DNA of 64,000 bases, taken from positions 14,818,001-14,882,000 of the forward strand of contig OX344764.1 in assembly GCA_947034895.1 (NCBI GenBank), written 5' to 3'. Origin of the DNA: Rhytidiadelphus loreus (lineage: Eukaryota; Streptophyta; Bryopsida; Hypnales; Hylocomiaceae). Below, one piece after another: positions 1 through 59,222 of the stretch (positions are counted from its first letter, which is position 1; each line of letters starts with the position of its first letter). Made by a program: the position numbers and the translations under genes. The notes under the pieces are model-generated. The model had not been told where the DNA came from. It searched no databases and was given only the letters and a program-made list of their open reading frames with translations.

Positions 1-779
1 GACGCTTAGTCACCCGTTAGGTTAGAATTTAGTTAACCCCTAGAACCTGGTTGTGTCCGATTAATTACCAAGGGTGGGTAATTAAGCGCCCACAACGAGG
101 TTGCAAGATGGCATTTCTGCTAGCTCTGACTCTGTAAGATCTTGAAAGAAAAAAAGATTCATACAACACAATCATTTTCCAACATCCACATATATGCTCT
201 AAACTTATTCATAGGATCAATGGTTTCCAAATCTTAATCCTTTAGCAGTGCCTACGCCCTACATCAGTTGCACAATTTGGGTACTGTGTATCAAAATCAT
301 TCAAAGAGATATAATAAAGTTTTAAGACTGAGACCACGGCAGCACTCCATTTGGTACCAGGTACGAACACCATGCATCACCCATACGTTATTGCTTAATG
401 CAGAACACAATTGTCCTCCCTATAAAATTAAAATCAGCAAGAGCTAGCCCAGCGGTGCTATTCTGTGAGCGTGTGAGCATGAGCCTGTGAGCGGTGAGTA
501 GGGATTATGTGAGCATTGAGCTCAAAAATTTGTAGAAGCACTAAAAACTTAATAATATTTCTAAAAATAGATTCCAATTAGAAAATTTAGTCAAATTTTA
601 TTATTTCTAGTAAAATTTTGCACCTATTACTATAGACCTATTACCATGGACCTATTACCGTGGTTATGTAGAATTTAGATGAAAATTATAATTTCCAATG
701 TTGTCTAAAATATTAGAAGTATACATTATGAAAATGATGAACTTAATTGATATGAAAGATGGATGGAGATGGAAATAAA
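1..779. other. Gene-free AT-rich stretch
   Basis: I see no exon-like open frame here. The only local structure is a short tandem around 620-663, where a unit close to ACCTATTACCA is repeated about three times. Confidence 0.5.
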
Positions 780-1400
780 TTTGTATAGAATATTGATTGA
801 TCATTGTTCTATAGCAATGAGGGTCTTTACGGGGCTGATAGGAGGGTATCAATAATATTCTCTTGATGCGCCATCGTTGGACTTGTTTAGATTTCTTTTG
901 AAATTGTTAATAGGAATTATTTTTATATCTAATGATCTTTGTCATAGTAAATTTTATTTTGGTTGATCATTGTCTTGTAGCATCATAGATCTTCTCATGG
1001 TCAATGAAAAGGTACCAACACTTCTTTGTGGATTTACAAGTCAATGAACTTGTTTAGATTTTAGAAAAGAAAGATTGTTAATTGGAATTCAATATATTTG
1101 GAAAAAGCTTGGCTCCACCAAATTTCATTTTTGTTGATCACTATCTTGTAGTAGCGTGGGTCCTCTTGAAGCCGACGGAGGGTAACTATACTTCTGCCTT
1201 GATGTATTTACGTGCTGGTAATTGGACTTATTATGATTTTGGAAGACAATATTTGGTTGATAGGGATTATTTTGTAAAGAGTGAGCTTAGTTACACCAAA
1301 TTGTTGATTAGTTGACCATTGTTCTCTTGTAGGACCTTTTAAAGATCCAACTCTTCCATCTTTGATCAGATAGTCATTTGGTTAATCACTCCCCTCTTGT
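780..1400. repeat. Degenerate ~170-bp tandem repeat
   Basis: A block beginning close to TTGATCATTGTCTTGTAG recurs near 796, 962, 1132 and 1311, with a weaker copy near 1380. A second block, ACTTGTTTAGATTT, recurs near 877 and 1047. The spacing of 166-180 bp fits a decayed tandem satellite. The short ORF at 1082-1315 is read through these repeats and is not supported as a gene. Confidence 0.6.
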
Positions 1401-1409
1401 TGCTTGATA

Positions 1410-1427
1410 CCTCTCGGCGCCGAGAGG
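1410..1427. repeat. 18-bp perfect palindrome
   Basis: CCTCTCGGCGCCGAGAGG is a perfect palindrome. It resembles the TCTCGGTACCGAGA palindromes clustered at 6.1-7.6 kb but has a different centre (GCGC instead of TACC). Confidence 0.6.
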
Positions 1428-1517
1428 AGGATCAAGCACTTATCTTCAAGTTGATGTGCTACTTATTGAACTTTAAAGAAAAAAAATGATTATTAATTAC
1501 GATTCGTTTGAAATCGA

Positions 1518-3332
1518 CTAAGGTTGTCGTTCGAGAACAGAGTTAAGATTCTTCCAAAATAAAATTTGAGCCTCGCCATCTTCCGATTGCATGTCACAAA
1601 CAACGATGGTCATTACACGACAATATTCGAAATCATACACATGACACGCCATGGTTGTCCAACTCTTCACGCGTTTGACATGATCGAATATAAGCCACGC
1701 ATGTTGAAGGTCACCTCCACTTTGCATTCGTTTGACAAGGTCCACTCCACTTCCAGATCCAACTTCAGACATCTTAAAAATGAAAACTTTGTCCACATCT
1801 ATTCCTTGCCCTGGGAATTTACTTTCCTGAACAAATGCCCACGTGCTTGACCCCCTCAACTTGGTAATACTATCAATTACACCAAATCTCCTTAAATACT
1901 TGAATGATGTTACCTCATTCCGAATACTTGGGGAGCTGAAGTATTTGCATTTGTCCAGTACTGGGACAAGTTCATCGAAGTCAAGGGTCTTGGTCGGCAC
2001 TCCATCCGGGCACAAAATAAGCTCACCCAACAGTTCTTTGGTAGCCGCCATGACAATTGAGGAGTTGGTTCCAGTTGGTGTTCTCTCCAATTGTTCTCCA
2101 ATTAGAGTCCGAGTCCTGTCCTTCATGTCTCTAAGTTCACCATCTTTCACCGGATGTTGGTGAGTGCCCAGATGTACAAAAGCACGAGTATGCAACTCAG
2201 GCCCAGTGACATAGTAGACCTTGACACTACACCTGGCAATACATGAGGGAGGCATCTTGCATATTTTACAAACAAGAGATGATCCAGGAGGGTGGACTTC
2301 ACCCACAGCAACTGGAATAGGTGATAGCCCTTCCCATTCCAGTTCATTCATGGCCTCGGTTCGGTGTACGCGACTAAAAAACTCACAAGAGGAATTCATG
2401 CAACGAAGATGACCTAGGCAAGAAGCTGTGCGAAAAGACAACCCCATGGGGTTAGATATGTTTGTGGTCACCATCTTAGACCACACATGACCATCACAGC
2501 GCCGATCCATACCAACCATGTTTTTAACTTCAGATTGCGTAGGATAGGACTCTAGTGCAGGCAATTCAAATATTACGTTGCTGTTGAACTTTGGAGGCAA
2601 TGCTTGGACTCTCTCGAAAGGAATAGTATCGTAATCGACTTTGGACAACACATTTCTACATCCCTTCAATGTTGGAAGTTTCTTCAAACAGTCTATAACA
2701 GAGACCCTTGTGACACGAGCTGCAGATTTAGTGGTTGTCATTGCAGGGGGCAGGTTCGTGAAGCTTGGTAATATTGACTGAGAAGGAGTGTTACTAATCT
2801 TGTCGTCCCGAGGGGGATCTCCGTCTGAATCATCACTAAGAATGGTGACATGATCCGGAAGTGCCTCTCTCTTGACACGAGATGAGGGTGGGGTTCGAAA
2901 TGATGACGAAGAGGATCGATGGGGCGTGAAACCATCTGTAGAAGAGGGTTGCTTTGAATCTAATACTCCAAACGCCCTATATTTCCCAGGCTTCAAATGC
3001 TAGTAAGTATCTTCACCAACTGCGGCAGGAACTTGTCCTAGGCTATGAGTGATTTGCCCAGTGTCGAGGTCAAATATGTCTTCATCAACGTAGACGGACT
3101 CTATCTTAAAATTAAATCGTAGACTTAATCTGCAAGCTGACACAATGGCAAGTCCATCTTTGTCTAGTGGAAATAGGATTGGAACATCATCTCCACTTGC
3201 ACTAAGCACTACCATGTCCTTGAAGTCTACCATTGCGCATAGTCCGTGTTTCCTGGTATCAAATTGTCTACAAACAGAATTCAAGTTGGTTAAAGAAGAA
3301 TTGCGTGACAATGAAGAGCGTCCACAAAACAA
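1518..3332 (-). pseudogene. Transposase-like ORF with in-frame amber stop
   Basis: One minus-strand frame is open from about 3332 to 1518 except for a single TAG at 3002-3000, giving about 110 codons before it and 493 after. The apparent start of the downstream part is a TTG, not an ATG, so the two parts read as one interrupted frame. The frame also stays open upstream to a candidate splice acceptor near 3377. The downstream part has a Ser/Asp-rich N-terminus, a Cys-rich segment (GHLRCMNSSCEFF, then CKICKMPPSC) and an end reading VYDFEYCRVMTIVVCDMQSE. I associate this arrangement with the N-terminal half of MULE-type DDE transposases of non-seed plants. That family call is from memory of the architecture. 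The catalytic C-terminal half is not seen before the stop at 1518, so the copy is probably broken and truncated. Confidence 0.5.
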
Positions 3333-3377
3333 CTTTGATATTCTACAGCAATCGAGGCCTACTCCGTAAAAGGTGAC

Positions 3378-4430
3378 CTAGGCAGAAAAACAACCTCATT
3401 CATAGAAAATAGGAAAGGAAATGTAATTCCGCAAGTATTAGGAGTTCAGGACAACCTTCAGGTATTCAAATATAGGAGGGACAATTGTACCATTGAAATG
3501 AACATTTGAGTTTGGCGGCGAAGTAAATGTTACAACTGCTATAAAATAGTATATCCTCCATATAAGATGGTCTCTGCCGTCAGTACATACTGAACATTCA
3601 AAAGTATAAAGGCAATCACTCATCTCATTGCCATGCGTTGGCATTGGAGACCCCAACAAGAAAGTAATCAATACAAAGTAACCTCCAAAATCTACATGCC
3701 TCATTAACCCCTGAGCGCCCAGGAGGAAATCACCAAAATAAGCATGCTACAGACATTGACAGAAATAAGAGGCTCCCGCAGATGCAATACTTTCATCCAA
3801 CAAACTTCACCGTTGGAACTTTGAGAGGGGTAGAGTCCGAAGGTCTGCTGAGAATCTGCAGAGACTTGACCATTTGGATGCAGAGATTATAGCAATCAAT
3901 TCTGTGTTGACTGCCTTGTTTTAGGCGATTTTTGAGAGGTCCGTGCTATTCGGAGGCCTCCCCCACCCTAAAGAAGTGACCAATGCTGTCGATTTTTTGC
4001 TAGTGGCTGGGCCCTCTCATGATCGTGTGGTGTGTAAAATTGCTTCGATTTCTGATGCCTATAGCTTTAGTCGATGCCGCATTGAATTTGGTGTCCTCAC
4101 ACTGGAGAGACGAGTATGGACCGGGAGCACGAAAAAGACAACTGACAGGTGGGATAGGGGCCCAGTGGTATACATGCCATCCACGTAGCCTAGTTAGCAT
4201 TCCCGCAAGTAGAAGCAACTACCCATACCAGCTGAATCGTGGTTGGATTGGCTGGCTTCAAGCGGGTCCAAATATGGAATACTATTTGCACGTCAAAAAT
4301 TCCGTGTTCAAAACCACATGACACATATAGGTAAGGTAAGAGCATCTCCTGCGGCCCTTTTGGTTTGAGCCTCTCAAATGGGTTTTGGAAGGCAATTGGT
4401 AGAATCATACTCAGTGTGGCTAGAAAATAA
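3378..4430. other. Gene-free spacer
   Basis: No coding exon can be supported. An 88-codon minus-strand frame at 3704-3438 begins with a true ATG and lies just upstream of the transposase-like ORF. It could be an earlier exon of that element, but it has no recognisable domain. Confidence 0.35.
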
Positions 4431-4431
4431 T

Positions 4432-5102
4432 TGCCTTCTCAAAATCAAAACGGTCAAAAAACTTCCATACCCTTATAGAGAGTCCCAAAAAAACACACCA
4501 TGAAAAAAAATAGAAACAAGAAGGTCCAATCCTATTTTTCTACAAATAGACAACTAAATCATTCAAAAAAATGTAAAAAATTTCAAGAGCGTCCAATGAC
4601 TCCACAACTTTCCATCTAGGTGCAACCTACAACCACCAACATGTGCACCAAATTTTGCACAATTCCAACGATCCAATCAAAAGTTATGGCCCATTTGGTA
4701 AACTGTGACTAATGTGTCTAATGCCTCCTAGGGGCATTAGACACATTAGTCACAAGTGCCCAAATCTCCTAAAATAATAGCCTTCTCTAATTCAAAATGG
4801 TCCCAAAACTTCCATACCCTTATAGAGAGTCCCAAAGAAACACACCATGAAAAAAAATAGAAACAAGAAGGTCCAATCCTATTTTTCTACAAATAGACAA
4901 CTAAATCATTCAAAAAAATGTAAAAAATTTCAAGAGCGTCCAATGACTCCACAACTTTCTATCTAGGTGCAACTTACACCTACCAATATGTGCACCAAAT
5001 TTTGCACAATTCCAACGATCCAATCAAAAGTTATGGCCCATTTGGTAAACTGTGACTAATGTGTCTAATGCCTTCTAGGGGCATTAGACACATTAGTCAC
5101 AA
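4432..5102. repeat. 347-bp unit in tandem, each ending in a 49-bp hairpin
   Basis: The sequence from about 4432 to 4755 recurs at about 4779-5102 with an exact offset of 347 bp and few mismatches. Each copy ends in a near-perfect palindrome, at 4705-4753 and 5052-5100. The arms GTGACTAATGTGTCTAATGCC and their reverse complement are 21 bp and flank a loop of about 7 bases. No coding frame is present. Confidence 0.85.
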
Positions 5103-5319
5103 GGCGATATTTTCGCCTCTGGAGCACTCAGAGGTTAATGGAAGTTTTCATCAATTAAAATATTTGATTTTGGTTGAAATAATGCATCATGGATGTGCAA
5201 ATCATGAATATCTAGCTTTTGAAACATCAGGATTGTAATTATACTTGATTATCAAATGTGCATTTTAAGGGTAGATTATAACTTTTTATCATACGAAATC
5301 AAAATACAATTGAGGGAGA

Positions 5320-5560
5320 GTGGGGCTTACCAAGTTAAGAGCCAAATGTACAAGACTTAAGGGCAAAATGTACCGGACGAGTTGGGCCAACCATAATAAG
5401 AGAGAAATGTACAAGACTTAATTTACAAACTTAAGGGCTTAATTTAAAAAACTTAAGGGCTTAATGTAGAGTCTAAGTGGGGCTTATCATATGAAGTGCA
5501 AAATGTACAGGACATAATGTACAGGTCTAAAGGTCATAATGTACAAGACGAGTGGGTCTT
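5320..5560. repeat. Degenerate short tandem repeat
   Basis: Variants of ACTTAAGGGCTTAATGTACAAGAC recur about eight times. It is a low-complexity tract with no coding value. Confidence 0.55.
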
Positions 5561-5699
5561 ATAGTATTATGAGCCACGACGCCGAAGCGGAATCCATTGC
5601 TTGGTACTGAGTCCCCCACTTTTGCATGATTTTCGGAACCCTAAAGCCATCAGTGTAGATGTAAGGACTGTCTCCCGCAGAAGGAAGTCTTTTTGTTCC

Positions 5700-5787
5700 G
5701 ACACACTTCTGTAGGTTCCCGCTGCTGTACTCGTGACACACTTCTGTAAGTTCCTGCTGCTGCCCTCGTGACACACTCCTCGATTCC
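5700..5787. repeat. 35-bp tandem repeat upstream of the ParB/methyltransferase gene
   Basis: The word GACACACTTCTGTA starts at 5700 and 5735, and GACACACTCCT at 5770, a regular 35-bp period with about 2.5 copies. It lies within 180 bp of the first coding exon, in the probable promoter or 5' UTR. Confidence 0.65.
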
Positions 5788-5877
5788 ATCAACGTTCATT
5801 GCTAGTTTCCAATGCTTGCCGAGTGTTGCTCACTCATCGTGGAACTTGGGGTTCTGTTTTGCTTGAGACAGGTGGAG

Positions 5878-8800
5878 ATGGCAGGGTCTGGACCAAACAC
5901 GCGGCCGAGACGCCACCAACCGAGCCAAGCTCTTCCGGATGCTCCAGCACCGATGGCAGAAGACGTCGAACTTCAGGTGAGAGTTTCCTCAATCGCATCC
6001 TGGTTGCACGAGATGAGAGGTTTAGGGATTCCGCGTGTGTAACATATCATCATTAGGTTTTTGCAATGAGTGAGTGTATAATAAGTTCAGTTGCTGGGAT
6101 GCATACACAAATCGTGCAATAGCCCGTCTCGGTGCCGAGACATTCTCAGCTAGAAGGTGATTATACACAACAAATGTGAGGACTGAAGCTTTGGGAGGCG
6201 ATACGTCAGTTCATTTAGTAAATTATAACACTGCTTCGTGAGATTAGACACTAAACCACACAAATTTACAATTCCTTTAAACCTATAGTGTCATCCAGAT
6301 CTCCCAGAATACGGAAAGAATTCAGTCTGAGGTCGCCGTGAGGATTACAAGCTAAGGTCACCGTAAAATATCACATAACCTCTAGTTAACACGGAATCTA
6401 AATTCAACGTATTATTGATAGCTTATAGCCGTGGATGATTGTGTGATATACTAGATTGGTTTGCTTTTAAAATTCCAATGCACGCTAATCGACAGTCTCA
6501 CTCAATCTCGGTACCGAGACGAGTTTCTCGTGGGGTTTTCCTTGCATGAAATTTAGAACCCTGCTTCAAAAGGCCTCTCCGTCTCTGCATGTAGTTCCGG
6601 GATGCAGGAGCATGAGTCATTTACTGACTGGGCTTCCCGTCCCCATCTCGGTACCCTTCTTGCATACAAATCTTCTTCCCGTCCCCTTCTCGGTACCGAG
6701 AGATTAATCTGACAGTACAGTCTGTGCATAGAAACTATGCATCGGGACTTAAATTTTTTTGGTACTGCTAACAGAAGCAAGTGCTCTTCAGAATTCCACA
6801 TTGCATATCTACAGTCTTGTATGTAGAGTCGTCATCGTCCAATCCTACACGAATCAATCGTGACCAAAATATATCTATGATACTGTATGCATATTGAAGA
6901 TACTGGGAACCCTCTCTCGGCACCGAGACAAGGTCAGTTGATGGAAATTCATGTATGCGATACCAGTTTGATTTCCGCAAGTTTGGAATCTTGTAGTTCC
7001 TGATGCACTGGCATTTCAGGTCTGAGTCCGTCTCGGTACCGAGATTAAGAACTCAGGAGATGATAATGCATGAAGACACCACGGCCAAATATTATTTTGA
7101 TGTTTGCCTTGAGCGATTAGTATCTGGACAAAGCATGAGTTGATCGCTTCGAGGATTGTCTCGGTACCGAGACTAGTTTGTGAGTAGCCATCTGATGGAC
7201 AAGCATGAGAGCGACACGCCTCAACGAACTTGACAAAACATCCTAGGCATAACTCACATAGTCGAATGTACTCTGTCAATTGGACGAGGTTTCAGTCTTA
7301 TGCATAGCTAGTTTCTGGATATGACAGTCTCGGTACCGAGACAAGTTTTATTGTCTGATAACCTTGCGCCTGAGTCGGGTGCCGGTACCTAATAATTTGT
7401 TGTTTGACTGAAATCAATTGTAGGTGGAGAGAACGGAGCAAATACGCGAGACTCCTGTTGAAGCCAGTATCTCGCCGACCACATCACCTGGTTCTGTAAG
7501 ATTCACGCTTTTGTCATTTCCAGTCATGGATTTTGGATACTCATTCAAGAAGGATCATTGCCTTACTTGAAAAGAATGCATACCCTGTGCGTTTGTTCCA
7601 CCATCTCGGTGCCGAGACAATCAAGGAGTGATGATATGTGTGCACAATTTGTGGATTACTATTCTTACAATGTCATGTGCTCTTACGATGTTGTGGTATT
7701 CTTCTTCTCAGCTAGAGGCCGAGACTGAGCCTGCACCACTTTCGGTAAGTTGCTTCTCACAATTCTACTTGATATTATCATTTGCTCTATGTCACGGCAT
7801 GATTTAGACTGTGCCAGTCTTGTAGATAGATTACACCATGTCAAGCTATATTCAATTCAGGTGGTTGATTAATGCAACAAATTTTTGGACAGCGTCTTGT
7901 CTCAGTACAGAGAGTACATGTGATATCGACTGCTTAAGCAAATTTTGGACAAGTATTCTACATATTCAGTTCAAGAAGTTGCATATAGTGCTATCATGAT
8001 CAATTTTGTTATATGATGTTTGGATGAACTCCCGGTATGATCACGAGTTCCTCTAACCCGAAACTTTGACTATATTGGTAGGCTCCTGGTGTAGCTAAAG
8101 AGACGAATATGCCTCACCAAGTTCATGTGGGTGAACATGCTAGTGATGTTGATCAAGTAGTTAATTTGGACAATATTGTCATGGAATCCCAAGGTCACGG
8201 CACTGAAGATGTTTCGGTCCCTGGAGTGGGACATGGATTTATGGAGGAAGATATAAGGCGGACGCATACCCTAGACACCGTGTCTGTAATAAATTCCTTG
8301 AAGATGATGAGCAATGACCTGTCACGCATGAAGATCCCGTTGTGTAGGCTGGTCCTGATGCCTATGGTCAGGCCCACTTTATCCTGTGATTTAACGCAGC
8401 TCGACAACCAGTTCAGCCGAGGATATGATGAAGGTGCTCGGGTTTTCTATGTGTTGATTTCGGACGAGCAGGGAAACATCGAGGTTTTCAACGATGCAGA
8501 GAAGATGGAGTGGGGGACGATTTGGAACTCGGTTAACGACTCTTTCAATGCGCACCTGCAATCTATACCAGCTTTGCAGCATCTTGTGGACTACAAGTTC
8601 TTCGTCTGTGATGGAAATCACAGGCGAATTGCTTGGATGAACCACATTGAGCGGCTCCATAAGTTGGAGCGGGATTGGCATATCAGTGTGGATACCATTG
8701 TCCTTGACACAAGAGGAAGAATCGGCATAGCAATGCAAGCTATGCACGATATTAACATATAACGATTTCATCACATATTACTAATGAGTTTATATATATT

Positions 8801-11800
8801 TTTTAAATTAGAATGCTCTCCGGTAATGTACTTGTTCCATGATCTTACTTTGTTGTGATGTAATTTTGACAGGCATACTGAAAATTCCCATGTCAAGACC
8901 AACCTAGTCCACACCCTCTACCGGGTACAGAAATATGGAGTCATGGAACTCCAAAAATTTCAGGAGTTACTAAGTGCAGATGAGGTTCAGTCATGTCACA
9001 TGAACTCACGGAAGACCTGGTATACTATGCCCTTGGACGTCTTCACCAGCTTCATCTTTAAGGTTTCATTCTCACTTCATTCGATTACTGCAAGTTATCT
9101 TTCTGTCATGATCAATCGAATTTAGGACAATATATTCTTACTTGATTATCATATTCTCCTCCAGCAAGAAATAGCGGCTGCAGCTGATGTCGGAATTCGA
9201 AAATTCAAAGAGGAGACTCCAGAGATCGAGATAACCAGGGAGGCGGTAGCAGCCGCTATGAGATCTTCTATTAAAGACTCCACTGAGAGGCATTACAAGA
9301 AGCTCTCCAAAATTGTAGTTGTAGCTAATCCAACACTTGGTACAGATTGGCTCCTCGAGGTATGATTCCAATAAAGTTCATTGCAATTTCATTGATCTTG
9401 TTCTGTTTGCATGATTCTGATTTATTGGTAAATTGAACTTGGCAGATAGAGAGACATTGGAGCCATAATGCGATTCCCGAATTGACATTAGAAAAGTTGC
9501 AACTCATTGCAACTGCAGCTGTGAGTCCACTGTATAAGGTGAAGTGGTTGAAATGGATGAACTCCAGTGCACCCACGAGGGAGGCACGCCGATTCCCACC
9601 GCGCCCTATGAATGAGGACAAGTTAGGGGTCTTCCTTGCAAAGGCGTGTTACTATGCGGGGGTATGTTCTCTCAACGAATGTTGAATATCCGAATTCAAG
9701 GTTTCATATGGCATAGGTTGTAATTCTTATATCACCTGCACAGTCGTTCAGTACAATTGAATTCAACAATTTTGACAATTTCATGTATTTTTCAGCTTGA
9801 GGAGGAAGCTCTGGAGATGTTTGACTCCATCATGAAGGCAGACAATATTTCAATCGACATGACCGTCCCCACTGAGCCACTGTCATTGTTCGAGTATATT
9901 GAGGCGTGGCGGATGAAGCTGTGGGATCAGGCCTACATAGGGGCGTTTAAGGGCACTGATGCCTTTAAAAAATCGGATACATTTGCACTATACCGGAGGT
10001 CCCAACAGACAGTCCGTCGAGTGATTTATAGGTAACATAGTGGTTTTCTCTTTGTATTTTTTTCAGAACCATGATACGCATCTCTATTGTCTTGGTTTGC
10101 ATGTAATTAGTTCTAATATCTCCATGTCTTCCAAGATTTAATCTATTGTATTGTGTCTGCAATAAACTATTTATTAGTTGAATTAATTTTTGTGGCCAAG
10201 CACTCATGTTGTCTATTTCCACTGAAACTAAGTTCCATGAATCACTATAACTATGTATAGGTACTTCAAGTTTGAGTTGTATGGGAAGAAGGCCATTAAG
10301 AGGGAGGATTTACCATCTTTCCTTACTACTTGGTTGGATCGGACCTCGTCAGACTGTATGTTCTCCTCAACACAGTTGCAAAAGTGGACTAGTGCTCATC
10401 TCCAAGCATGCCCTTGGTATCTCGAGTGCTCCATTGGTGTCACTCCACCAGAGAAAGAGGCCTTGTTTCAAAAGATGAACGAGTTAGTGGGGGCTGACAC
10501 GGTGTTCGATGAGTTTGCGGGACTTGATCCAGAGGCCCGTGACAAGGCCATGAAGAAACGGGAGTTAGCCGACAAAAAGAAGGTGGAGAAATTGGAGGAA
10601 GCTAAGAAGAAGACTGAAGAGAACAAGAAGAAAAGACTGGCCGTGCAGACTGAGAAAACCCAAGAGAAGGAGAGGAAGAAACGCCGTACTAGAAAGGATG
10701 AGCTTCCAATACCTGAGCCAGCTACAAGCGCAGTTGGCGTGAACATCTCAACATCCGGTTTTTCACTTACCCAGGAGCGTTTGGTGCATCGTTTGACGCC
10801 AACAGCTAGGAGTGTGGACACTATACCTGACGTTGATGAGTGTATTTTGAACTACTCGTTGGGTACTCTTGATATGATGTCTGAGTCCTTCAAGGACGTT
10901 GAAGCCTTCTTGGCCATGGTAAGGCCGTTCAATCATTTTTTCAGTTTAGTTGTTTCTACATGTTTTAACATTATGTATTGAGTATGAGTTTTTGCATTCC
11001 CTATAACTATAATAGTTTTATTGATTTAGACCTAAGGGGATATGTATAACGATGCTTGTCATATTAGTTTGTCTTCTAATGCATTTTGATTTGCAAATAT
11101 AATGCAGCATTCCAGTGACAAGAAACGTTCCTTCAATGGAGTCATTGGATCAGAGCCGGCAGTGGACCTGATGATTGTCGATGTGCCAGAAGGACTCCAT
11201 GTTCCTACCGTTTCATTACCACCTCAGCCCATTCCATCTTGGAATGTGTTTAAAACCGACTACTTGTTTCCAGTCTTTGATTTTGCTCAGGAGTACCTCC
11301 ATGATAGTGGTGGTCTATTCTTGATGTATCCAAGCCCTTCTCCTGCACACAGAAGCCACATTCTAGGATGTTGCAAGGAATACAAGTTTCGCATACTCTA
11401 TACTTATTTTGGCACGAATCATCTACATACAACGTCACCAGCAGACGCTTCGAGAACGGTAATTCACATTCTATTCACTTGCTTGTTTTTTTTACAATTA
11501 ATAATGGTTTGAGATATTCTAACATTTTTTTCATGCAGACTATGAGGTTCTCCATCTCCCTTCTCGTGAAGGAGTCAGGTCCGAAGACCCTTGAAGACTA
11601 TCCATTCCAGTTTGTTCCGTCCCATGACGAAGTGGGTGTAAACCTTGCTAAGGACGACATTCTCCGGAACATGTTGTTCAAAGAAGATGTCACCATGAAT
11701 GGAGACATACCTTGGCGTGGGCCTCATGAAAAAGGCCGAGAGTTCATGCAGATGCTCGTGGAGGCTTCTTGTGCACCAGGGGATGTGGTTGTTGACTGCA

Positions 11801-12441
11801 CCGCAGGCACAGGTTAGTTGTTGACATGAAATCGTCTTTCTTATTCGCACTATACCAAGCGCAATTTCAAATTAACACTCTTGTGAATGTTTATTTGACA
11901 GGTTCCAGTATTCACGCATGCCAGGCTACGCGTCGTCATATTCTGGCATTTGAGGAGGATAAGGCTATCTTTGATGCCGTCATTGCTCCAATTTTACGAC
12001 CAACTGCTGTTAATCAGCCAGAACAAGACACCTCTATGGTAGCCTTAGGAGGTGATGAGGAGGAGGATATAGTAATCCAGAAAGTCCAGAAGACCAACCG
12101 ATTCAGTAAGTAAGTCATCCATTGAGCTCCTTTATTGATACAACATGTTTCCATGAACTTCCAGTGATCTAAAACATTGTTTACTGTTGTGCAGGCAAGG
12201 CTAGAAAGTGACTTCTAGAAGGCACGTACCTTTTTATGCGAATCCTGACTTCTTTCGGAGCCCACCGAAACCTTTTGTATTGCCTGTGTATGCTGAGGCT
12301 CTCTCCCGGGATTTCGTCGCCCTAAACCCACGGCCATCATCGAAGGCATGTTCGATAGATCCTCGCGCACTGCAGTTTGTAGATGATCATGCAATGGAGT
12401 CTGATTCTCATACATCTGATAGTGAGGGTAGCTCCATGTGA
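5878..12441 (+). CDS. ParB-like / DNA amino-methyltransferase-like fusion protein
   Basis: Exons with matching phases: 5878-5976, 7424-7495, 7712-7744, 8082-8758, 8873-9062, 9165-9359, 9446-9661, 9796-10031, 10261-10918, 11108-11458, 11539-11812, 11902-12105 and a last exon ending at 12441 (about 1,145 aa) or at 12211 (about 1,073 aa). The fourth exon encodes FFVCDGNHRRIAW, the ParB/sulfiredoxin-type D-G-x-H-R core. Exons 5-9 have no domain I know; exon 9 contains a long Lys/Glu coiled-coil-like basic tract (10540-10700). Exons 10-12 resemble a beta-class amino-methyltransferase: DLMIVDVPEG takes the place of motif IV (D-P-P-Y), then HEKGREF, then PGDVVVDCTAGTGS as motif I. The motif order IV then I fits N4/N6 DNA methylases. 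Motif IV is degenerate, so activity is doubtful. One splice donor (8759) is ATAACG instead of GT. ParB-methylase fusions are known from phages; which DNA or role this one has is unknown. Confidence 0.75.
6127..7913. repeat. Cluster of TCTCGGTACCGAGA palindromes in introns 1-3
   Basis: Perfect 14-bp copies start at 6506, 6688, 7031, 7159 and 7328. Copies with one central change (TCTCGGTGCCGAGA or its complement) start at 6127, 6915 and 7604. A half copy lies at 6646 and a degenerate one (TCTCAGTACAGAGA) at 7900. Most are followed by C. The sequences between them are not alike, so this is not an ordinary tandem array. All lie in introns 1-3 of the ParB/methyltransferase-like gene; I found no other cluster in the window. 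Confidence 0.85.
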
Positions 12442-15180
12442 GCTCTTTAGCTACTGAACTTTGCTTGTTCTTCCCACAGCATACTTTTGATTTGTGGTTG
12501 CTCGTTTTCCTAATTCACTTATATTTTCTGCTTACTTTGTATTACTTTGGCGCATCCTTCTCTATCTAAGTTCACATGCTCTAAAAGCAACCATTCATGT
12601 GATGATTTACTTTTTTTTTATGCTGGATTGGACTGAAATGCTTCTATATCAGTTTTCAGAGGAAGGCAAAAAAAGAACGAACCTATTATAGTCGGTTTTG
12701 TATTTTTCAAAGACTTTTTTAATTACTAATAAATTTTCAAAGATTCAAGTGAAAGCCACCAAGTTGCGAACATACGTCTCTCAAAATACGTCTACTTGCA
12801 ACTTGTAAAGAGATATGCCGAACTGGAAGACACTGAATTTTTCTTGTAGTAGAAAAAGTACCTTTTCCCAATTCATTCAAGTGCTACAGTGGTCCGTTTT
12901 AGGATCACACCATTTCTATTCTTCACCTCAAAATAGGAGCAATTTAAAGAAGATGGGCACTTTTAGAACATCCTACATTATTACTCTTGGTTGTCTTTTC
13001 TTTTGCCTACAAAACTATATCTGCATTTCTGGTAGGTACAAATATTTTTTGTTATTATATATAATGCATCTCTAGTAATTACAATTATTCCATTTTTTTG
13101 TATAGTAAATGTTTTTCTACATGGTACTTGGTCCTAAATGCCACTCAGACCCAAGAAGAGTCTATATAGGTCCTAGGCACGCTTTTTGGATCATTGAAGC
13201 GACCCCGCCTATTGGTTTGCTTGTTCTGTGGACGACATTTGTGCCCAAATTAGGATCTGCATGTCCATTGGATGAGCAACCTATCTCTTATCCGCTCCAA
13301 CCCAAACAAAGATGGTCCACTCGTTGAACTCCCAACGTGTCTAGCCCAGGGACGGTACTCTTTGTAATAAAGGAGAAGGGCTCCTCTACCGCAAACCATT
13401 CGATTCTTATGACGATGCGACAGGAGGTCTTGTTTCCATGGTCAATATGGTCGTCAGGGCGTGAATTTGAGGAGAGGTTGGTTTCCTTTGGTTGTGTCAT
13501 CATGGTCTGCACACAGGCAACGAATTTTTTCTTCCATCATTTCTCTAAGACCATCGTTCAGTGTTTCTAGCCCAAATATTTTGGCAGTCCATTTACTGCG
13601 GCTACATATACCACTCCCTTGTTCTTCCTTACGTGGATGAGATGCACCTAGAGTTCGGACAAGGTAGCGATGAACCAACTGTGCCACAAACATTGAACGA
13701 TTTTGTAAGTTCAATTTCCTTTTCTGTGTTCATGATATTCTTATAGTTGAGTACTTGTGTATAGTTGGATTTGATTTAATTTAGATTTGTAACTTCTATA
13801 GTTAAGGTCCAACAGGTCTGGGAGAGGTAGACATTCATCTTTTTCATAATCCAACATCCTCACACTGTCCATCCTTCCATATGCAACAACATTCAGATAT
13901 GTTGCTGAAAACGGATATTTACATTGCCCTATAGGACCACCCACTCCATGTCAATCATCATGCATTTTCTTCAGTCATGTTGTGTAATTCTCCACTACCG
14001 CTTTTGAAATATTGAACTGTTGTTCTACTTAATGACAACGCAAAGAGGGTCCAACTCAATATTGGAAGTAGATGAAAAAATATGACCTCCAAATTGCGTC
14101 TAAACATTATGATTAGGCAAGCACACAATTTTTTAGTTCAACGGTGTTAGTGGGGGTTTACACAATGGGGCGAAGGCAATGCATGGTGATTGACAAGAAG
14201 TCGGTGCGCTCATGGACACTGAATGAGTCTTCAATATCATCACCTTCCTTGGCACAGGGGTTTTCATCTCCATAGTGTTTCTGGTAAAAGCTAGGACCTG
14301 GACTTCTACAATCATTGAGTGTAGTTGGTCTTTTAATTTGGTCTACTACAGACGCTGCACTGATTATGCTTCAGTGGAACTCCATGTCATTTTTCGAAGT
14401 GGGTTCTTTGTAAAACCAAAGAATGCTCATTTGTTGGTAGTGTTTCTTGCTTATGAATAAAATAAACTTTTATCCTCTTTGACCGTTGAACGCACTTGTC
14501 TACAATATCTTGTAGTATCTTTTTGTATTGGATTATTTATATCTTTGTTTTCAAAAATGAGTCATTCACGCGTTTGTCATTCACTGCCAAATGCATTGAA
14601 GGGCAACAATTCTAAGTCCAATGGGCATGCCCCATCATCAGGTAGACTTTCAAGGGAAAAATTCTTATTTTCAGACCTTGCTCAACAGGGCCAGTAGCCT
14701 AAAACTATTCTTAGAGTGAGATTGGTACACTACACATGTTTGTTTTACCATTTGGACTTAGCATGATGTAAGTTACAAACTCAATTCAAATATCAAAAGT
14801 AAAAGAGGAGTTTTTCAAACCAGCCTGAAGGTGCCTAAGCTGGCAAAAAAGTGTAGGGTAGCATAACTTTTGATTGCTTAAACCAATCACAAAATTAATG
14901 AAATTTCCAATAAAAAGGTACATATCTAGACCCTGTGTCAATATTTCGTGAACATAATCCCAAAATTTGCTTCATTGGAACCTTGACTAGATTTTTAATT
15001 GTTCGTTCAATGGACAATTGTCCATTAGGAATTAATGAAAAGAGCCTATACCCAAATACGGTGCCCATTTCTGGTGGTATGCGCCGTTTTTCTAATTTTC
15101 ACTGCATACGTTTTCTCTTCTTTAGCATTCTACAGTTTATTAAATCTAAGATTGAAAACTGTTTTTTATCATCCAATCTT
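12442..15180. other. Gene-free spacer
   Basis: Only short open frames occur on either strand. None has a domain, a codon pattern or splice context that supports a gene. Frames around 13100-13720 look like decayed coding sequence but I cannot assign them. Confidence 0.45.
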
Positions 15181-15330
15181 TTCATCCAATTATTCATCCA
15201 TTTTTTCCATCCATTTTTTTCATCCACTTTGTTCATCCAATTTATTCATCCATTTTATTCATCCAATTTGTTCATCCATTTTGTTCATCCGATTTGTTCA
15301 TCCCATTCGATCCATTTCATTGAACTACTT
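15181..15330. repeat. TTCATCCATTTTG minisatellite
   Basis: About eleven degenerate copies of a 12-13-bp unit close to TTCATCCATTTTG. The 182- and 137-codon plus-strand frames over this tract are translations of the repeat, not genes. Confidence 0.8.
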
Positions 15331-16831
15331 CCATCCACTGTCTCGTAATTGTCTTTACATTTTTTTACTAAACTTTCATCCTTTATTTCCTAAAACTCTC
15401 ATGAACTTTGACCATAAATTCATCCATTTTCTCTTAAATTTACGTCAATTTCTTCATACTTTTCTTCCAAATTCTTCAATAAATTTCCCATATTCCCGCT
15501 CACCGCTCACCGATCCCCGCTCCACACTCGCATACAAGAATTGGAAAATATTGTCAAAATTGCCAAAAATCATCACTCTTTAAAAAAAGATTATTGATTA
15601 GATTTCATTTATTTTTTAGAATTTATAATTGTAGGATCTTATTCTTGACTAGTATTAGGGACACACATAAAAAATTTGGGGTTTGAGGATAAATATGTGT
15701 GAAAACAAAGTTGGCAAAGTAGAGCAAAATGTCTTCTTCAAGATTTCCTAAAATTTTGACAATGTAATCCATATCATAGATTCCCTTTGCAATGAAGATT
15801 TAGGGACATCAAATTTAAATAGGATCTCAAATTAGGAAGAAACATGCAAATTTTCAAAGCAAAATGATGTTGCCCTCCTCCTATCCAAGTCCCCCCCCCC
15901 CCAATAATGCATAACTTATTTTCAACATAGAAATTATTTTCTTCAAAAGTTTGTTCATTTTCTTAATCTCACTAAAAAAAATGAAGAAAAAAAATCCAAA
16001 ATCTCATACTTCATTTTAGTGCTACCCAAATATCTCAAAATCCATTTAAACTTGCAAGAAGATTTAGGGATTAAATATGCAATCAAAAAAAACATTAGAA
16101 AAAAGTTTTGTTCTTTGCAATAGAAATAGTAGTTTTGAGTGTTCATTGATGAGAAAAAGGCCTTGGTCCTTCAAGAATCAAGTGATGTGAAGCATGCCAA
16201 CTTATAATTGGACTATCTCTTTATGGAATGAAGTTCTCTTCATTTATTTCAAATAATTTATAAAATGTTTCACCATCAAAATAGAATGATAGATTTTATC
16301 TAAATAATAAGCTATCTTCAGTAGATAAGTTTGCCTTTGATAAGGAAAGATGTCTATATGAAAGTATCACTTATTACTATAGATGTATCCTAAAGTGTGC
16401 CTTAGTAAATCTAAAAAATAAACAGATATTTATTATGTATAGAATATTCAAAGTAGGGCATCAAATTTAGGTCATGGATTTGAAATCTATAATAGCACTT
16501 TGTCCTGTTATAACATTGGCATACAATATTCAAACATCATTCTTGAATTTCAACTTAGTTTAGCCACATTTTACAAATATGTGATATAATATCAAACTTC
16601 ATGAATACAAAATTGTAGTTGTCGAAGGTTATATGTAATGATCAAAACTTCAAAATTCAAGCTTCTTGCTTTGGTACAATCCTTTTAGCCTTTGATAAGT
16701 AATTCATGACATTTGAAGTCATTGTAAGTTTCATTTATCCTTTAACTATACTAAATTTATGGCAATTCAAACCTTGTAAATATGTACTCATCCAATTAAA
16801 GACCTAGTGCCATATTAATTTAACCTTGGAA
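15331..16831. other. Gene-free AT-rich spacer
   Basis: AT-rich sequence with no supportable exon. A homopolymer of 12 C lies at about 15891-15902. Confidence 0.5.
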
Positions 16832-17010
16832 CACTATAAGAGAAAGGGGTGTTTTAAGTATAGTCCTAGAGATAAGATATTAAGTAATGACCTTTATGTT
16901 GACCTTTATGTAGTTTTTTAATAAAATTTTACATAAAGATCATTACTTAATATCTTATCTCTAGGACTATACTTAAAAACACACTTAAAACACCCTTTTC
17001 TCTTGTAGTG
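16832..17010. mobile_element. 179-bp CACTA-type foldback MITE
   Basis: The element begins CACTATAAGAGAAAG and ends CTTTTCTCTTGTAGTG. Arms of about 70 bp are nearly perfect inverted repeats, and the whole element folds back on itself. It is flanked by a 3-bp direct repeat GAA (16829-16831 and 17011-17013). CACTA termini with 3-bp target duplications are the hallmark of En/Spm-type elements. There is no coding capacity. Confidence 0.88.
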
Positions 17011-18207
17011 GAAGGATGCCAAGGACATTTTGTATCCTTTGAATGGTCAACAAAGTTTTGTACATATTGAAGAATGGATGATTTTCATTCAATTTTTTGC
17101 AAGCAATTTTATTGATGCAATAGATACATCATTGAATTAAGTTCAAGACGTTTTGGTTGATTTTAAATTTTGCATGAGGTAGTTTATAAGAAAAATGGTA
17201 CACTATCCAATTTTTTATTTATTTTTTAATTTGAGATTTTTTCCCTTAAAACTTGATTTTGACATTTAAAGCAATATGGAGTGACATGGATATTTTCTTT
17301 CAACCACAATACTCTACACTACAATGTACTTCTATCCTGAAAATTTTAGTTTTTTGAATGTGATTTGTATTTGATATGAATTTTCTTCATTTATTCTTCA
17401 AAAATTCATAGTTATTTGAAGTTTCACAAAGAAGTTATAATTTTCTAACAAATATTAGACATGTGATTTCATCGTTGAAAAGGAAAGCCAAAAAATTTCA
17501 GTCATAAATAGAGAAGAAATGGAGGATATAGAATGACAAATACATTTCATTAGTAATTGCCAATCCTTGTTTTAAAAAAACACTTATGAAAGTCTCTCTA
17601 AGAATCTCTACTAGCCACATATTCTTAGTCACCTAGCACATCAATCAATAAGCAAATCCAAAGTTTTCCACAGGTTGTGCATATAGGAAACCAAGAACCT
17701 TTGGGTGAAATGACTCCATAATGTCAATGCAAGAGAATTTCTCCATTATGGCATGTTTTGATTGGTTAAGGAGAGGCGAATTAAGAGTAATAATACTCAC
17801 TACTTGCCTTGTGCAAATTAAGATTGATAGTGCTCACTACTTCCCTTGTGCAAATTTTCAACAAGGGAGATATGAAGTAGAAATTTCATTGGTTTAGCAA
17901 TGAGAGAAATCTCTACTACTACCAACTAGTATTAATTTAGTGAGTGCGAATTCATAATCTAAACACACAAGACTTTCACCATTGTGGCATGTTTTGATTG
18001 GTTAAGAAATCAAAGAAATCAAACGGCTCAACTCTCCTACATTGACACTATATCCAATAATTGCAAAATAGGCCAAGTCATCAAAAATAATCGTAGGTTA
18101 GTACTAACCTCACCGCCCAAGGCTCGATAGGTCCCTAACTGGCAATTATTCTTGATAGCTTGGCCTTGCTTTGCAATTACCTAGTCCAGAATTTCTTCTA
18201 ATACTCA
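17011..18207. other. Gene-free AT-rich spacer downstream of the VEF gene
   Basis: I searched the minus strand here for VEFS-box exons (the H-M-W-N-S-F type motif expected at the end of EMF2 proteins) and saw none. A direct repeat close to GGCATGTTTTGATTGGTTAAG occurs near 17750 and 17983. Confidence 0.5.
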
Positions 18208-21200
18208 TTAGCCCTTTGGACGAATTCTCATCAGACCTGATCGCAAATATGAAGCAGTCTCCAGTGGCGTCTTATCAGTTTCATGAGGTTGGATCTCGTC
18301 ATGAAAAGTGGCTCCCACTTTTCTCCTCTTCCCAGGTGATTGACCTTTAGCGTTTCTGTAAACAGAAACGGAACCCCTCTTCCTCTCGACCCCCTTCACA
18401 GCCCGTTTTTTGGAGCAACGTAGCTTCTCAAGAACCGTCACTGGAGGACCGGTATAACCACTTTTCTCACAAATCTCCTGACACTGAGAAACAACAGTCT
18501 TTTTGCATGGTCTGTGCGACCTGTAAACAAAACGGGATAATTTTTATGATTTAAATCTGGGACAGTAAGAGTACGAGTAATACTACAGTAGAGTATTACG
18601 GTGTGTCAGTCAGTAGATTATAATCTGGGACAGTAAGAGCAGGACACTCTATGATTGAATACACAGTAGGCTTAACCAAATTCCATCTTGACCAAATATC
18701 CGTTCAGTGACAGTCCAAATGTTAAAGTGAAGGATCTCACCCAAATATCCAGAGTTTTGTTTTCAAATCTGGCTTTGATTCTTGAAGAATTTCCCCCTGT
18801 AGCAAAGAGCACATTTGCTACGTAAGTTAAGAGAATGCTAAAATCGGTGGGCACCTGATACCGTCTCCTGTACTGACCATTACGAGGATTACGACTAGAA
18901 ACTCATCTATCTATATATACTCTTGGTTGGACTTAATTATTAGCAAATGGCGTAAGCATGACTTGGTTAAATCAATGTCTACGGGCATTGATCTTTGAAT
19001 GGAAATGGGATATTCTACTGTCACTTATATTAATCTGCAACCTCCCACATTGAAATTGCATAAGAAAATCATTATTAGTTGTCCAGGAATACATTCGATC
19101 TCTTTGGTTTGACTTTTGTACCGATCTCTTCACACTCGCCAAAATCAGACTCCTGCTTATGTTAAAATGTTGAAACTGACGCAAATAGTATTCTCTACCT
19201 AGCTAATGCTGACCAACAGACAACCAAGCACGTGCAGTTCTCAACTAAAGACGCAGAGAAAAACAAATTCAAACCCAAGTTGGAAACCTCACTGAGGTAG
19301 ATTAGTATTGTTTCACATTTTGGAATATTTCGCATATTGTTGCTGCACATTTCACCACAGTTGAAAGAAGAAAATTTGTGATGGCATGTTGATACAGTCG
19401 CTACTTTCTCTTACCAGGTTCACCCACCAGTGTAAGATTTGAGGACTAGAGCCTAACCTCAGGGTCCAACAATTCCGTCCGACAGGTAACATTCACAACT
19501 GGTGCATCTGCATTCAGCTAGTCAAAGAAAGAACAGAACTGTTTAGGCTATAATTGTTAAGCTTGCAAGAAGAAAATGTAGAGCAGCACAAACAAATGAC
19601 TTAATATTCACCAGCAAACAGGTCCTTACTGAGTGCTTACAAGATATTCGAAGTTGAATAAATCGTGTGTACAACTCAAGTGACATTGTAGGCACTGCAA
19701 AATCAAACAAAGGATGTGAGACATATTTGACAAGAAAGATGAAAAGGAGGGAGTAATAAAAAATTGCACTAGATTTGAATCAAAACATGTGGCATGAGTG
19801 AAATTCCCCATAAATGGTTGTCTGACATCCTCAGAGGTTTCACTTTTTGGTTTTCCAGGAAGGAGAGGTTATATGGCATAACCTAGTCACTTCTTGTGCA
19901 CTTCTGATCAACCAAAAAGTGAGATCTCAATGCCCATAATTGCATGCATGCCACCCAGTTATGTCCAATAACCGTCTCAAGCCTCTTAGCTCTTGACAAG
20001 TTGTCTATTTTATAGTGGTCCTCATTGATAGACATGACAGAATACGAAGACTATTGTATAAGCACATAACAGTGCAGAGAGCATTTGTAAAATAAAATGA
20101 GTATCAAATATAACCTTAAAGGTGTGACATTGCGTAAGGCAAAATGGACAGGAGTACCTCTCCATCACTGTAATCATACCGTTTACATATATGTCAGAGA
20201 ACACCTGAAACTACAAATATGTCCAGCTCAATATATCTGAAAATATTTTGCACGTACTGATTCTTCTCATACAAACTACGGCATCCAAATATATTTCTTA
20301 GACCTATTCTGGACACAATAAACAATATCTTGTCTATGATGATTGTGTCCACTTTGGATCATATAGGGCACTTAAGGGATGAACAATCGGTCACCTTCTA
20401 TCTTCTCACAGCGATTGAAGTAGTAAAGGAAGTGGAATTCCACGCGGCCTCTGTAATTCCTGGTTATAAATCACCCAACTTCTTGTAAGTCAAATCTTTG
20501 AGCCATTGAATGCTAGACAAATAAACAAATAGTGGTTAGTAGGCAGAATCGAATCATTCATAAAGAAGGCATACCCAATACCATACCTAAAACGAACTTT
20601 ATGTACCAATATCAAACATCTAGGGACCTTGAAGGTATGGCTGTGGTACATGTGTTGGTATTAGGTTCAAAGTTAAATTGGGATATTCCTATTTTAACTA
20701 TATTTGCTGAAAAATAGTTGGGCAATAAGAAATTGCACAATACACTAGTTAGCAATATGAGTACCTAGATGACTGAGATGAACTAAGTTCCTCAGATGTT
20801 CCATTCAAAATAGGTTCATTTAGAATGTTCAACCCTATTTCTTCAGCACAAATACGCCCTTGCAGCCTCATCTATAGCACCATCCAGATTGATTCACACA
20901 ATTTTCAAAACTTGTTGCAGATCTAAAGAGAGTTCAGATCATGGACATTTTCTGTTAAATTGATTATTTTATCATTCATTCAACATGCAAAAGTGGAGTA
21001 CCTCACTTCTCCTAAGGGAAGTTAGTGCCTCTCCGAGTAACGGCCTCACTCGGATCGTGAGCCCAAGCGCTTTGTCAAAATGCTGCAAGTTCCATAGAGC
21101 TGAAATAATGAGAAACAGGTCTTGCATGATTCATGTTTCAACTAAATTTTAAGTCCAGTGACTTTCTTATACACTCGATACTTATGTCACTAACTTCACA

Positions 21201-31886: not shown

Positions 31887-34800
31887 ATGGAACGGAATAC
31901 CTGGCCTGCAGGATCGGATGGAAAGCAGATTCATGAGATTTGTTTGTCAGCTTCAGGCTCGCAAAGGCGCATGAGATCTATCTATTCCAATGTTGTAGGT
32001 ATTGCGAGGACTCATAGGTATGCAACTTGTTTGGACAATGACTAAATGTTATAATGTTGCGGTGTCTACTTGAATCCTAGTCTTGACTCTTTGAACTTAG
32101 GGTTGCTTATATATTGGGCGTGTTGGTAGCTTTGGTACAAAGTCACGTGCTTCAATCTCTGCCTTACCCTCTTTTTTTGGTGGACTCTTGGAGACTGGGG
32201 TCTATCACTCACACACAAAATTAATATGGGGGTGTCAGAGCTTGCGACATCTACTCCAAGATTTCACTGTTTCTTTCCATTTGGGTCGTGCATAATTTGA
32301 GCACCAGAGACACTACCTGTGCTTCGAGTTTTCAAATTGCATTTGATAATTGCTTCTTATTGTGGAATTGAACAAATTCTTATTGCTTGCACTTCGACAT
32401 GCCCAAATAGGGGGTGTCAATAGCTTGCAACATCTACTGCGAGATTTCAATGTCTCTTTCTATATTTGGTCCGGTTTAATTTTGAACTCCAGAATAATGT
32501 CCCAGAAATACTAAACTCTATCGAATTTTCAATTACATTTCAGAATCGCCTCATTGCAGAATAGAAAGTTCTCATGCTGACACCCTCTATTGATCTTTGA
32601 CACAAGCAGACAACGACACCACACACGAAAACAGGACACACGTCCGAGAGAGCCTTCAACAAGAACGTCTTCTCGGACATCATTTTGGGAAGGGGATTCT
32701 CCATCTGCGTCACAAGACCATGGAATGCATGTAGCGCGTGTAAACGTGGCACCGTCACACAAAATTCCAGCTGCAATTGGTTCATCTTTGAGTAGGAAGA
32801 GCAACATTAGTCCTGATGACTCCAGCAGATTAGTGAAAGATTCTTCGGTTCTCCACAGAAGATTTTGGACAGAAAAGAATGAGAATAGGCCAAAGGATGG
32901 GAATAGTAGCTCAGGAATGTTGCGATGTTCTGTTGAGGTGACTATATCCTCTGAGACAACCACTACTGCAGCCACATTTTTGCCTTTTGATGTCTTGCAA
33001 CGTATTGCGGGGTCCTTTTCATGGCACGACCTCTGGTCTGCCACATGTACGTGCAAGACGTGGAACAAGGCTCTGGCTCCACTTCGAGAAGGAATGCATT
33101 TTTTACACTGGGGTAAAAAATTTAAACACGGCCATGGAGTTGCCAAAAACCTAGACAAGGCTCTGCAATCGTTCACCAAGGGTGCTATTCGTGGTTGTGC
33201 TGCGGCTATGGTGGATGCAGGCCTGCTGCTTTGGGAATTGGTTAGTTGTTTGTTCCTTATCATGCTTATTCATGCTTCTTGTTTTTTGCTCCACTCTAGT
33301 ACGTTGCATATGTTTAATGATTACCAGAACAACCAGCTTTTATTGAGGACAACTATAGCCACAGTAGAGAATATCTTCTGTGAGCATCTATCCGATTATT
33401 AAGGAGCTGGTGTTTGTTGAATGTTTTAGGGGAGGCGTGATGAAGGGATTAAATGGTACAAGCAAGCCGCAGAGCTTAGACATCCAGCTGGAATGTGCAA
33501 CTTAGGTCTTGCTTACCTACAAGGTTCATTTTCTTCTTCTTTACTCTCAAACTTGGATAAGCAATAGTGTTTGGTGGAGGAAGATGCTAATGCTTCAGTT
33601 TTTAAGAATCATTCGTTCCTTTGACAGATTTCAGTAGTCCAGTAGAAGCAGTAAGGTGGCTTAAAATAGCAGCCAAGGCTGGTCATGCTCGAGCGCAATA
33701 CAGCTTGGCTTTGTGTCTGCAGCAAGGCAAAGGAATTGAGTGTAACATTCAGAAAGCTGTAAGTCCCCATCCATCCCATCATTCCATGCTTTCTGATTTG
33801 GAAATTGTGAGTTTGAATTATGAAGCTTGGTGGTAAGTTAGAAGATAGTAAACTGTTAGGGACCTAATTCTGTCTCCTATACTATACTAACAACTGATGC
33901 ATTCCTACTCGGTTGAACTTATTAGCAAGTGGTCTTGGCTACAGGTCTATGACCACTAATCTTTGAATGGCAATGAGGCTTGTCTTCTGTCACTTATAGT
34001 GGTCTATAATCTCGCACTGTGAAATGGAAATTCATGCCCAGTGATAGATATTCGATCTCAATAGATTTGGCTCCTGTATCTGAAGTGGTCTCTCCACAGC
34101 TCTATAAATCTCCCTAAAACCTCACTCCTACATATGTTAATATGCCTAAAATGATGAAAATATTATACTCTACGTTAAACCTGGAGCCCAATGATAAGAT
34201 GCATCTTGGATCTTAACAATTTGAGCTTGTAAAACCTATGCGAACTTCAGTTCTACTGATATGCTACTGCGGTGCAGGCCTGGTGGTACTTGCAATCTGC
34301 CGAGGGGGGTAGCTCACGAGGCATGTACAATACCGCATTGTGCTTACGATCGGGTGAAGGTGTAACTAGGAATTTATTCGAGGCTAAGCGTTGGATGCGT
34401 CGAGCTGCAATGGCTGGCCACGGCAAGGCCATGTTTGAGCATGGCCTAACTTTGTTTGCGGTATGTATTGAAGTTTGAATGTCAGACTCCTCTCCTACAG
34501 CCATTGTCATCTTATGTCTCCGAGATAAGTGCATGACATTCTTGAGGAGCTTCCTGACACCTTTGGAATCAGAGAACAGTGAGCGAGGGAAGAAATCCAG
34601 ATTTGTTTTGCACAATCTTGAGCTTATGATATGTTTGTGGAGGCAGTTGCGACTTTTACTAGAATAACTGATTTCGTTTCATCTAGCCTTAGCCTGCATG
34701 TGGGCTCACATAACAGTGATTGCATGCCTGGAAATGGATTAAATTGCTCCAAAAGGGAGGTAGTTCTTCAGTATTTAGTGCTCCATATTCTTTTTTGTTT

Positions 34801-59203: not shown

Positions 59204-59222
59204 CCTATTTAGTCACAAGGTC

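Follow-up and report, generated by a model that had tools for sequence, protein, structure and literature searches.

Background

Proteins that join a domain of ParB, the DNA-clamp protein of bacteria, to an N6_N4 methylase are known from phages, according to the accessible text of PMC12704722. The accessible part of the bdelloid rotifer paper states that the enzyme N4CMT has no eukaryotic homologues (PMC8885841), and the uptake of permuted prokaryotic DNA amino-methylases by eukaryotes therefore appears to be rare. N4-methylcytosine (4mC) has been reported for Marchantia sperm (PMC8566409, accessible text). Here we describe a gene on the + strand of a 64,000-nucleotide stretch of Rhytidiadelphus loreus DNA (assembly GCA_947034895.1, contig OX344764.1, positions 14,818,001 to 14,882,000; referred to below as the window), which an initial annotation had read as a fusion of a ParB-like domain with a permuted DNA amino-methyltransferase-like domain. 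The precedents named there, ParB-methylase fusions in phages and 4mC in non-seed plants, are both found in the papers just cited.

Our preferred reading, to which we assign a probability of roughly 0.5, is that of a nuclear, plant-type gene encoding a three-part protein of ~ 1145 residues with a DNA-binding or regulatory role. An N-terminal DGNHR domain, probably belonging to the ParB/DndB superfamily, would be followed by a linker (~ 500 residues) that includes a charged stretch and, at the C-terminus, by a domain that descends from a permuted (beta-class) DNA amino-methyltransferase. The methylase-derived domain would keep its S-adenosylmethionine (SAM) pocket and DNA-binding surface without methyl transfer, the DGNHR domain may bind nucleotide via its conserved arginine, and the protein as a whole would be a factor for DNA binding or for silencing/regulation, not a methylase.

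Gene model and descent of the C-terminal domain

The gene model consists of 13 exons between positions 5878 and 12441 (Table 1) and encodes 1145 amino acids without an internal stop; an in-frame ATG upstream, at 5812, would give an alternative product of 1167 amino acids. Borders of the GT-AG type were present in 11 of the 12 introns, in keeping with the intron-rich eukaryotic structure initially described, and GC content by codon position (0.54/0.40/0.51 for positions 1/2/3, versus 0.38 in introns) was as expected for coding DNA. Three motifs, DGNHRR (residue 245, exon 4), the motif-IV-like VDVPEG (residue 816, within DLMIVDVPEG of exon 10) and motif I, DCTAGTGS (residue 995, exons 11/12), fall in a single spliced frame, as had been proposed. 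The spacing from the ParB-type core to motif IV, previously put at about 700 residues, measured 571, with motif I at 750. Likewise, the earlier gene interval of 8082..12441 retains its end (the stop at 12441) but not its start: the beginning of exon 4 at 8082 is the same in the present model, and three exons precede it. These exons 1–3 were placed by splice sites and phase alone and are covered by no homologue. The linker in exon 9 had no Pfam family above cut-off.

Joined exons 10–12 were compared with PHROGs and gave eight rows, led by phrog_3008 (DNA methyltransferase, 1.7e-12) and including five more methyltransferase families (5.2e-10 to 3.3e-4), the remaining two being an uncharacterised family (0.015) and one of endonucleases (0.11). 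The spliced domain also exceeded the Pfam cut-off for N6_N4_Mtase (PF01555, 30.7 bits vs 26.7), gave 14 PADLOC rows that were methyltransferases throughout (best 1.2e-7), and matched the PDB methylases 5hfj (0.0018) and 5hek (about 0.002). In a phage collection of 50,697 records, 349 matched at E up to 1, with 23 covering at least 80% of the domain. The top row by coverage and identity, from Streptococcus phage CHPC879 (E 0.01), extended over residues 17–240 (89% of the domain, 23% identity) and placed phage LIIADIPYNLG opposite LMIVDVPEGLH of the window and DVVIDPVAGSGSTIRA opposite DVVVDCTAGTGSSIHA; motif I and the acidic residue after it were kept (DCTAGTGS...FE in the window, DPVAGSGS...FE in the phage).

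Profile-profile alignment with hhalign of the spliced domain against nine phage methylases reached, in the part with motif I, a probability of 97.6 (pairwise E 2.6e-12). The motif-IV half was aligned separately, together with two relatives of exon 10 (P0004 and P0005, 66% and 62% identity) that seem to run on into intron sequence at the same borders and for this reason resemble genomic fragments, from paralogues or from other species. It scored 28.4 against the same nine enzymes (pairwise E 8e-4), a value reached by none of 100 column shuffles (maximum 23.5); on the other side of the balance, the hhalign probability of this half alone was low (24.6). The DPPY of PDB entry 9c3u stands opposite DVPE too, in a stretch which by itself is without significance (− 3.9 bits). 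Motif IV lies N-terminal to motif I, which is the permuted order. Given the phage-profile, Pfam, PDB and profile-profile matches, descent of the C-terminal domain from a permuted (beta-class) DNA amino-methyltransferase can be taken as established at the level of sequence, and this half of the initial annotation holds. The domain may have been captured from a phage or mobile element.

The N-terminal DGNHR domain

When 7841 candidates were searched with the spliced protein lacking exon 1, only one relative reached E 0.001 or better: a fern protein of 839 residues, from Adiantum nelumboides (P0001, E 1.4e-12). A second search, made with the window protein and P0001 aligned and scoring the 7994 candidates sharing most words, added P0002 and P0003 (55% and 50% identity). 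Over the ParB-like domain, identity was about 50–59% to the latter two and 25% to the Adiantum protein. The D, G, N and R of DGNxR, together with an upstream PLCR block, were invariant in all four sequences. The box II P-motif of ParB proteins follows the pattern G-x-(H/R)-R-x-x-A, which is present in the window as GNHRRIA, in full in three of the four members and as GN.R in every one. The pattern DG[NQH][HQ]R, chosen post hoc, was found in 25 of 20,000 shuffles of the protein.

A series of results weighs against a ParB assignment. No profile similarity to ParB families was seen with Pfam, NCBIfam, PHROGs, our own hidden Markov model (HMM) or hhalign against 11 ParBs. Profile scans produced matches to DndB (0.0038), GmrSD_N (0.063) and the ParB-like phrog_1033 (0.27), each in one of the four members, and unrelated families scored about as well (0.0052 and 0.0082 in the same scan as DndB). 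The hhalign score against the 11 ParBs was 17.3, with two of 60 shuffles as high, and the scores with an HMM of the 11 ParBs were reached by 46 (window), 18 (P0002), 47 (P0003) and 119 (P0001) of 500 shuffles. The N-terminal domain had no match in PDB at E up to 10, and a search of viral contigs with two domain alignments yielded 5 and 123 pattern matches, none of them confirmed. With the N-terminal part as tblastn query, phages and plasmids returned noise alone (E 5 for one record, 0.9–3 for six others). Two AlphaFold models, both of low confidence (P0002-first, pLDDT 36; window exon 4, pLDDT 48), place DGN between a preceding strand and a following helix; with the low-confidence exon-4 model as query, Foldseek and VIA-align gave no usable fold match.

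The absence of a ParB profile or fold match in these scans, and of a credible tblastn match in phages and plasmids, would suit a DGNHRR domain that is plant-specific and unrelated to ParB, with prokaryotic relatives for the methylase part alone. We regard this as a serious, though tentative, alternative, since DGNxR is conserved, the G-x-H-R-x-x-A pattern occurs in three of four members, both low-confidence models show the strand and helix around DGN, and ParB domains have the same fusion partner in phages (PMC12704722, accessible text). The motif, its conservation and this phage precedent for the domain pair incline us towards ParB ancestry of the DGNHR domain. Thus, the motif on which the ParB-like label had been based stands (DGNxR in four of four), while the family assignment has found no profile, profile-profile or fold support. 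In ParB-fold proteins, an R-to-A change in the box II P-motif abolishes nucleoside triphosphate binding (PMC12704722, accessible text).

Intron 4 and possible signs of mobility

Intron 4 is the sole intron of the 12 without a GT donor, with AT in its place (AAC AT/ATAACG); splicing from an in-frame GC donor 24 bases further upstream (8735) would yield a product of 1137 amino acids. P0002 reads DIN-Q-HTEN across this junction (spliced), and P0003 reads from DINK through an in-frame intron-like stretch to HTED (read-through), which implies, as far as protein sequences can tell, that these relatives have a GT donor at this position. Lacking one, the present copy may be splice-impaired, may use the GC donor or may bear an assembly error.

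The missing donor would also be consistent with a gene that is part of, or recently descended from, a mobile element, this copy being a decaying member of a repeat family; so would the neighbouring open reading frames, which are transposase-like or unannotated, and the enrichment of ParB-methylase fusions in prophages (PMC12704722, accessible text). However, no terminal inverted repeats of note were detected between the flanks tested, 3000–8100 and 12441–20000 (best inverted match 15 bp, E 0.11), although element ends could lie further out. The window held no second copy of the gene (11 matches, every one on the gene itself), and all exons apart from the intron 4 junction are open. We consider a mobile-element origin of this kind unlikely.

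Catalytic motif and expected activity

The fourth position of motif IV was aromatic, (D/S)-x-P-(Y/F), in all nine phage enzymes aligned, which include two near-identical Streptococcus phage proteins. The plant family instead has D(V/M)PEG in three of three members (DVPEG in the window and P0005, DMPEG in P0004), and the catalytic motif (D/N/S)PP(Y/F/W) was absent from each. This bears out the earlier description of an intact motif I beside a degenerate DPPY, as DCTAGTGS and FE are retained and DVPE stands opposite phage DIPY. Because the aromatic residue of motif IV is changed in all three members, the plant family likely does not methylate DNA in the usual way; SAM binding by the methylase-like domain is possible, as GxG and the acidic FE remain. 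Two points count against such a loss: it is deduced from sequence, and there are other methyltransferases that work with different residues.

An enzyme that is active as a methyltransferase on DNA, RNA or protein, with DVPEG as an unusual form of motif IV, would account for the retention of motif I with its following acidic residue, of the D and P of motif IV, and of the motif itself in three members. We find it improbable, as the aromatic residue is present in nine of nine phage relatives (two of them near-identical) and as, in the accessible text of PMC8885841, the SPPY to APPA change, with loss of Ser and Tyr, abolishes 4mC addition by the bdelloid enzyme. The role in DNA modification suggested by the initial annotation is thereby weakened, and the functional reading moves to a DNA-associated protein that probably does not methylate.

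That two adjacent genes were wrongly joined is very improbable: the fusion is predicted from the gene model, and none of the relatives spans the two domains completely, but all junctions except intron 4 are GT-AG, phases match, no stop interrupts exons 1–13, and the Adiantum protein has the DGN domain and then, where exon 10 begins motif IV, a motif-IV-like C-terminal end, PVIDVLLVDV, a tail that the profile of exon 10 did not recover and that supports a fusion in a second species only weakly.

Palindromes in the first introns

The first introns contain a cluster of 14-bp palindromes, located at 6127, 6506, 6688, 6915, 7031, 7159 and 7328 in intron 1 and at 7604 in intron 2, and intron 3 has a looser form (two mismatches) at 7900. 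When the centre was allowed to vary, TCTCGGNNCCGAGA had nine exact matches in 64 kb, against an expected count of 0.00 (100 dinucleotide shuffles). The ninth, TCTCGGCGCCGAGA at 1412, weakens the idea that the palindromes are exclusive to the gene. No other perfect palindrome recurred at least three times in the window (lengths 12/14/16, more than two base kinds). Repeat families in window positions 1–20000 numbered at least 60; of the largest 20, those bearing the palindrome span only 22–25 bases, and for this reason the palindromes resemble scattered binding sites more than a minisatellite. Viral contigs contained the exact palindrome in 43 stretches, each with one site in the sequence covered and thus no cluster seen, and a literature search found no occurrence of the 12-base core CTCGGTACCGAG.

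The nearness of the palindromes to the gene resembles that of parS to parB. A eukaryotic counterpart of ParB/parS, in which the protein would bind the eight 14–16 bp intron palindromes, load as a clamp and regulate or silence its own locus and other palindrome loci, is a long shot, and stays speculation because of the site at 1412.

Features of the gene and its surroundings

Table 1 Features of the gene model (positions in the window)
Feature	Position	Strand	Observations
Exon 1	5878..5976	+	ATG at 5878; donor CAG/GTGAGA; phase fits exon 2
Intron 1	5977..7423	+	1447 bp; holds 7 palindromes TCTCGGYRCCGAGA
Palindrome cluster, 8 sites	6127..7617		5 perfect TCTCGGTACCGAGA, 3 with one centre base changed
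Exon 2	7424..7495	+	GT-AG borders, phase 0; no covering homologue
Exon 3	7712..7744	+	GT-AG borders, phase 0; no covering homologue
Exon 4	8082..8758	+	Start of ParB-like domain: IPLCRLV, then DGNHRR (residue 245); no family match
Intron 4	8759..8872	+	Non-canonical AT...AG; CAT/ATAACG; probable lost donor
Exon 5	8873..9062	+	Remainder of ParB-like domain (HTENSHVKTNLVHTLYRVQKYG); aligned with P0001–P0003
Exon 6	9165..9359	+	GT-AG, phase 0; P0001 alignment extends into this exon
Exon 7	9446..9661	+	GT-AG, phase 0
Exon 8	9796..10031	+	GT-AG; partial match to Adiantum P0001, pairwise E 1e-4
Exon 9	10261..10918	+	Linker with charged Lys/Glu-rich stretch; GT-AG; exon-8 P0001 match extends into this exon
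Exon 10	11108..11458	+	Motif-IV half of methylase-like domain, DLMIVDVPEG; 62–66% identity to P0004/P0005
Exon 11	11539..11812	+	Motif-X-like segment and first part of motif I (VVVDCTAGT); phrog_3008 1.8e-4 alone
Exon 12	11902..12105	+	Rest of motif I (GSSIHA), then acidic FE
Exon 13 and stop codon	12209..12441	+	Frame open up to stop at 12441

Upstream of the gene, a 300-bp direct repeat (4424–5101, 96% identical, spacing 347 bp), each copy of which ends in a hairpin with arms of 22–33 nt around GGCATTAGACACATTAGTCACA, looks like a duplicated miniature inverted-repeat transposable element. An open frame of 493 amino acids on the − strand (1518–2999) had no Pfam match at E 0.1; it may resemble Mutator-like transposases. 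Downstream, 13-base units around TTCATCCATTTT are repeated in tandem at 15165–15319, and nested inverted repeats at 16832–17010 (58-nt arms, 91% complementary, 11 nt apart) are likely a foldback element. Three adjoining − strand frames at 58421–61819, with a NIF-type phosphatase domain (4.8e-8), no annotation and a weak plant transposase match (PF03004, 0.0034), respectively, are possibly one mobile element. Two + strand frames, at 32581–33402 and 43919–44917, with weak F-box-like (0.0016) and DUF218 (0.00025) matches below the Pfam cut-offs, are likely ordinary host genes. Scans of the window for tRNAs (bacterial settings) and for Rfam families reaching their gathering cut-off were negative.

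Comparison with known systems

Among the matches listed in our literature search, which mostly excluded subscription papers and preprints, there was no description of such a plant family. DndB carries a DG.HR motif and is not known to have a methylase domain. The profile match of DndB/DGQHR proteins over the DGNHR region is weak (0.0038) and not significant among neighbouring rows. Phage beta-class methylases (phrog_3008, phrog_67 and the CHPC879 protein) also have motif IV before motif I, but the CHPC879 enzyme has DIPY and its gene stands alone, whereas the present family has DVPEG. The Marchantia enzymes MpDN4MT1a/b likewise come from a non-seed plant with reported amino-type 4mC DNA methylation; set beside the present gene by description, MpDN4MT1 is reported to make 4mC (PMC8566409, accessible text).

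A close published parallel in architecture is that of the phage and prophage ParB-N6_N4 fusions, in which a single protein likewise combines an N6_N4 methylase with a motif of the box-II type. Compared by domain content with the accessible text of PMC12704722, the present gene differs in being eukaryotic, with 12 introns and ~ 570 residues between the motifs, in having lost the catalytic motif and in a ParB profile that is not recognisable. If the ParB half is real, the gene is a new eukaryotic variant of this phage-type architecture. The bdelloid N4CMT is likewise a permuted amino-methylase, bacterial or phage in kind, that resides in the genome of a eukaryote; unlike the present protein with its DVPEG, it keeps SPPY, bears a chromodomain and makes 4mC (PMC8885841, accessible text). 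A Pfam scan of exons 4–13, exon by exon, gave no chromodomain row here. If our reading is correct, the gene would exemplify a second route for captured methylases, that is, reuse as a DNA-binding or SAM-sensing regulator, a case that rests on the conservation of a non-catalytic motif IV beside what may be a ParB-type switch, whereas the methylase captured by bdelloids stayed active.

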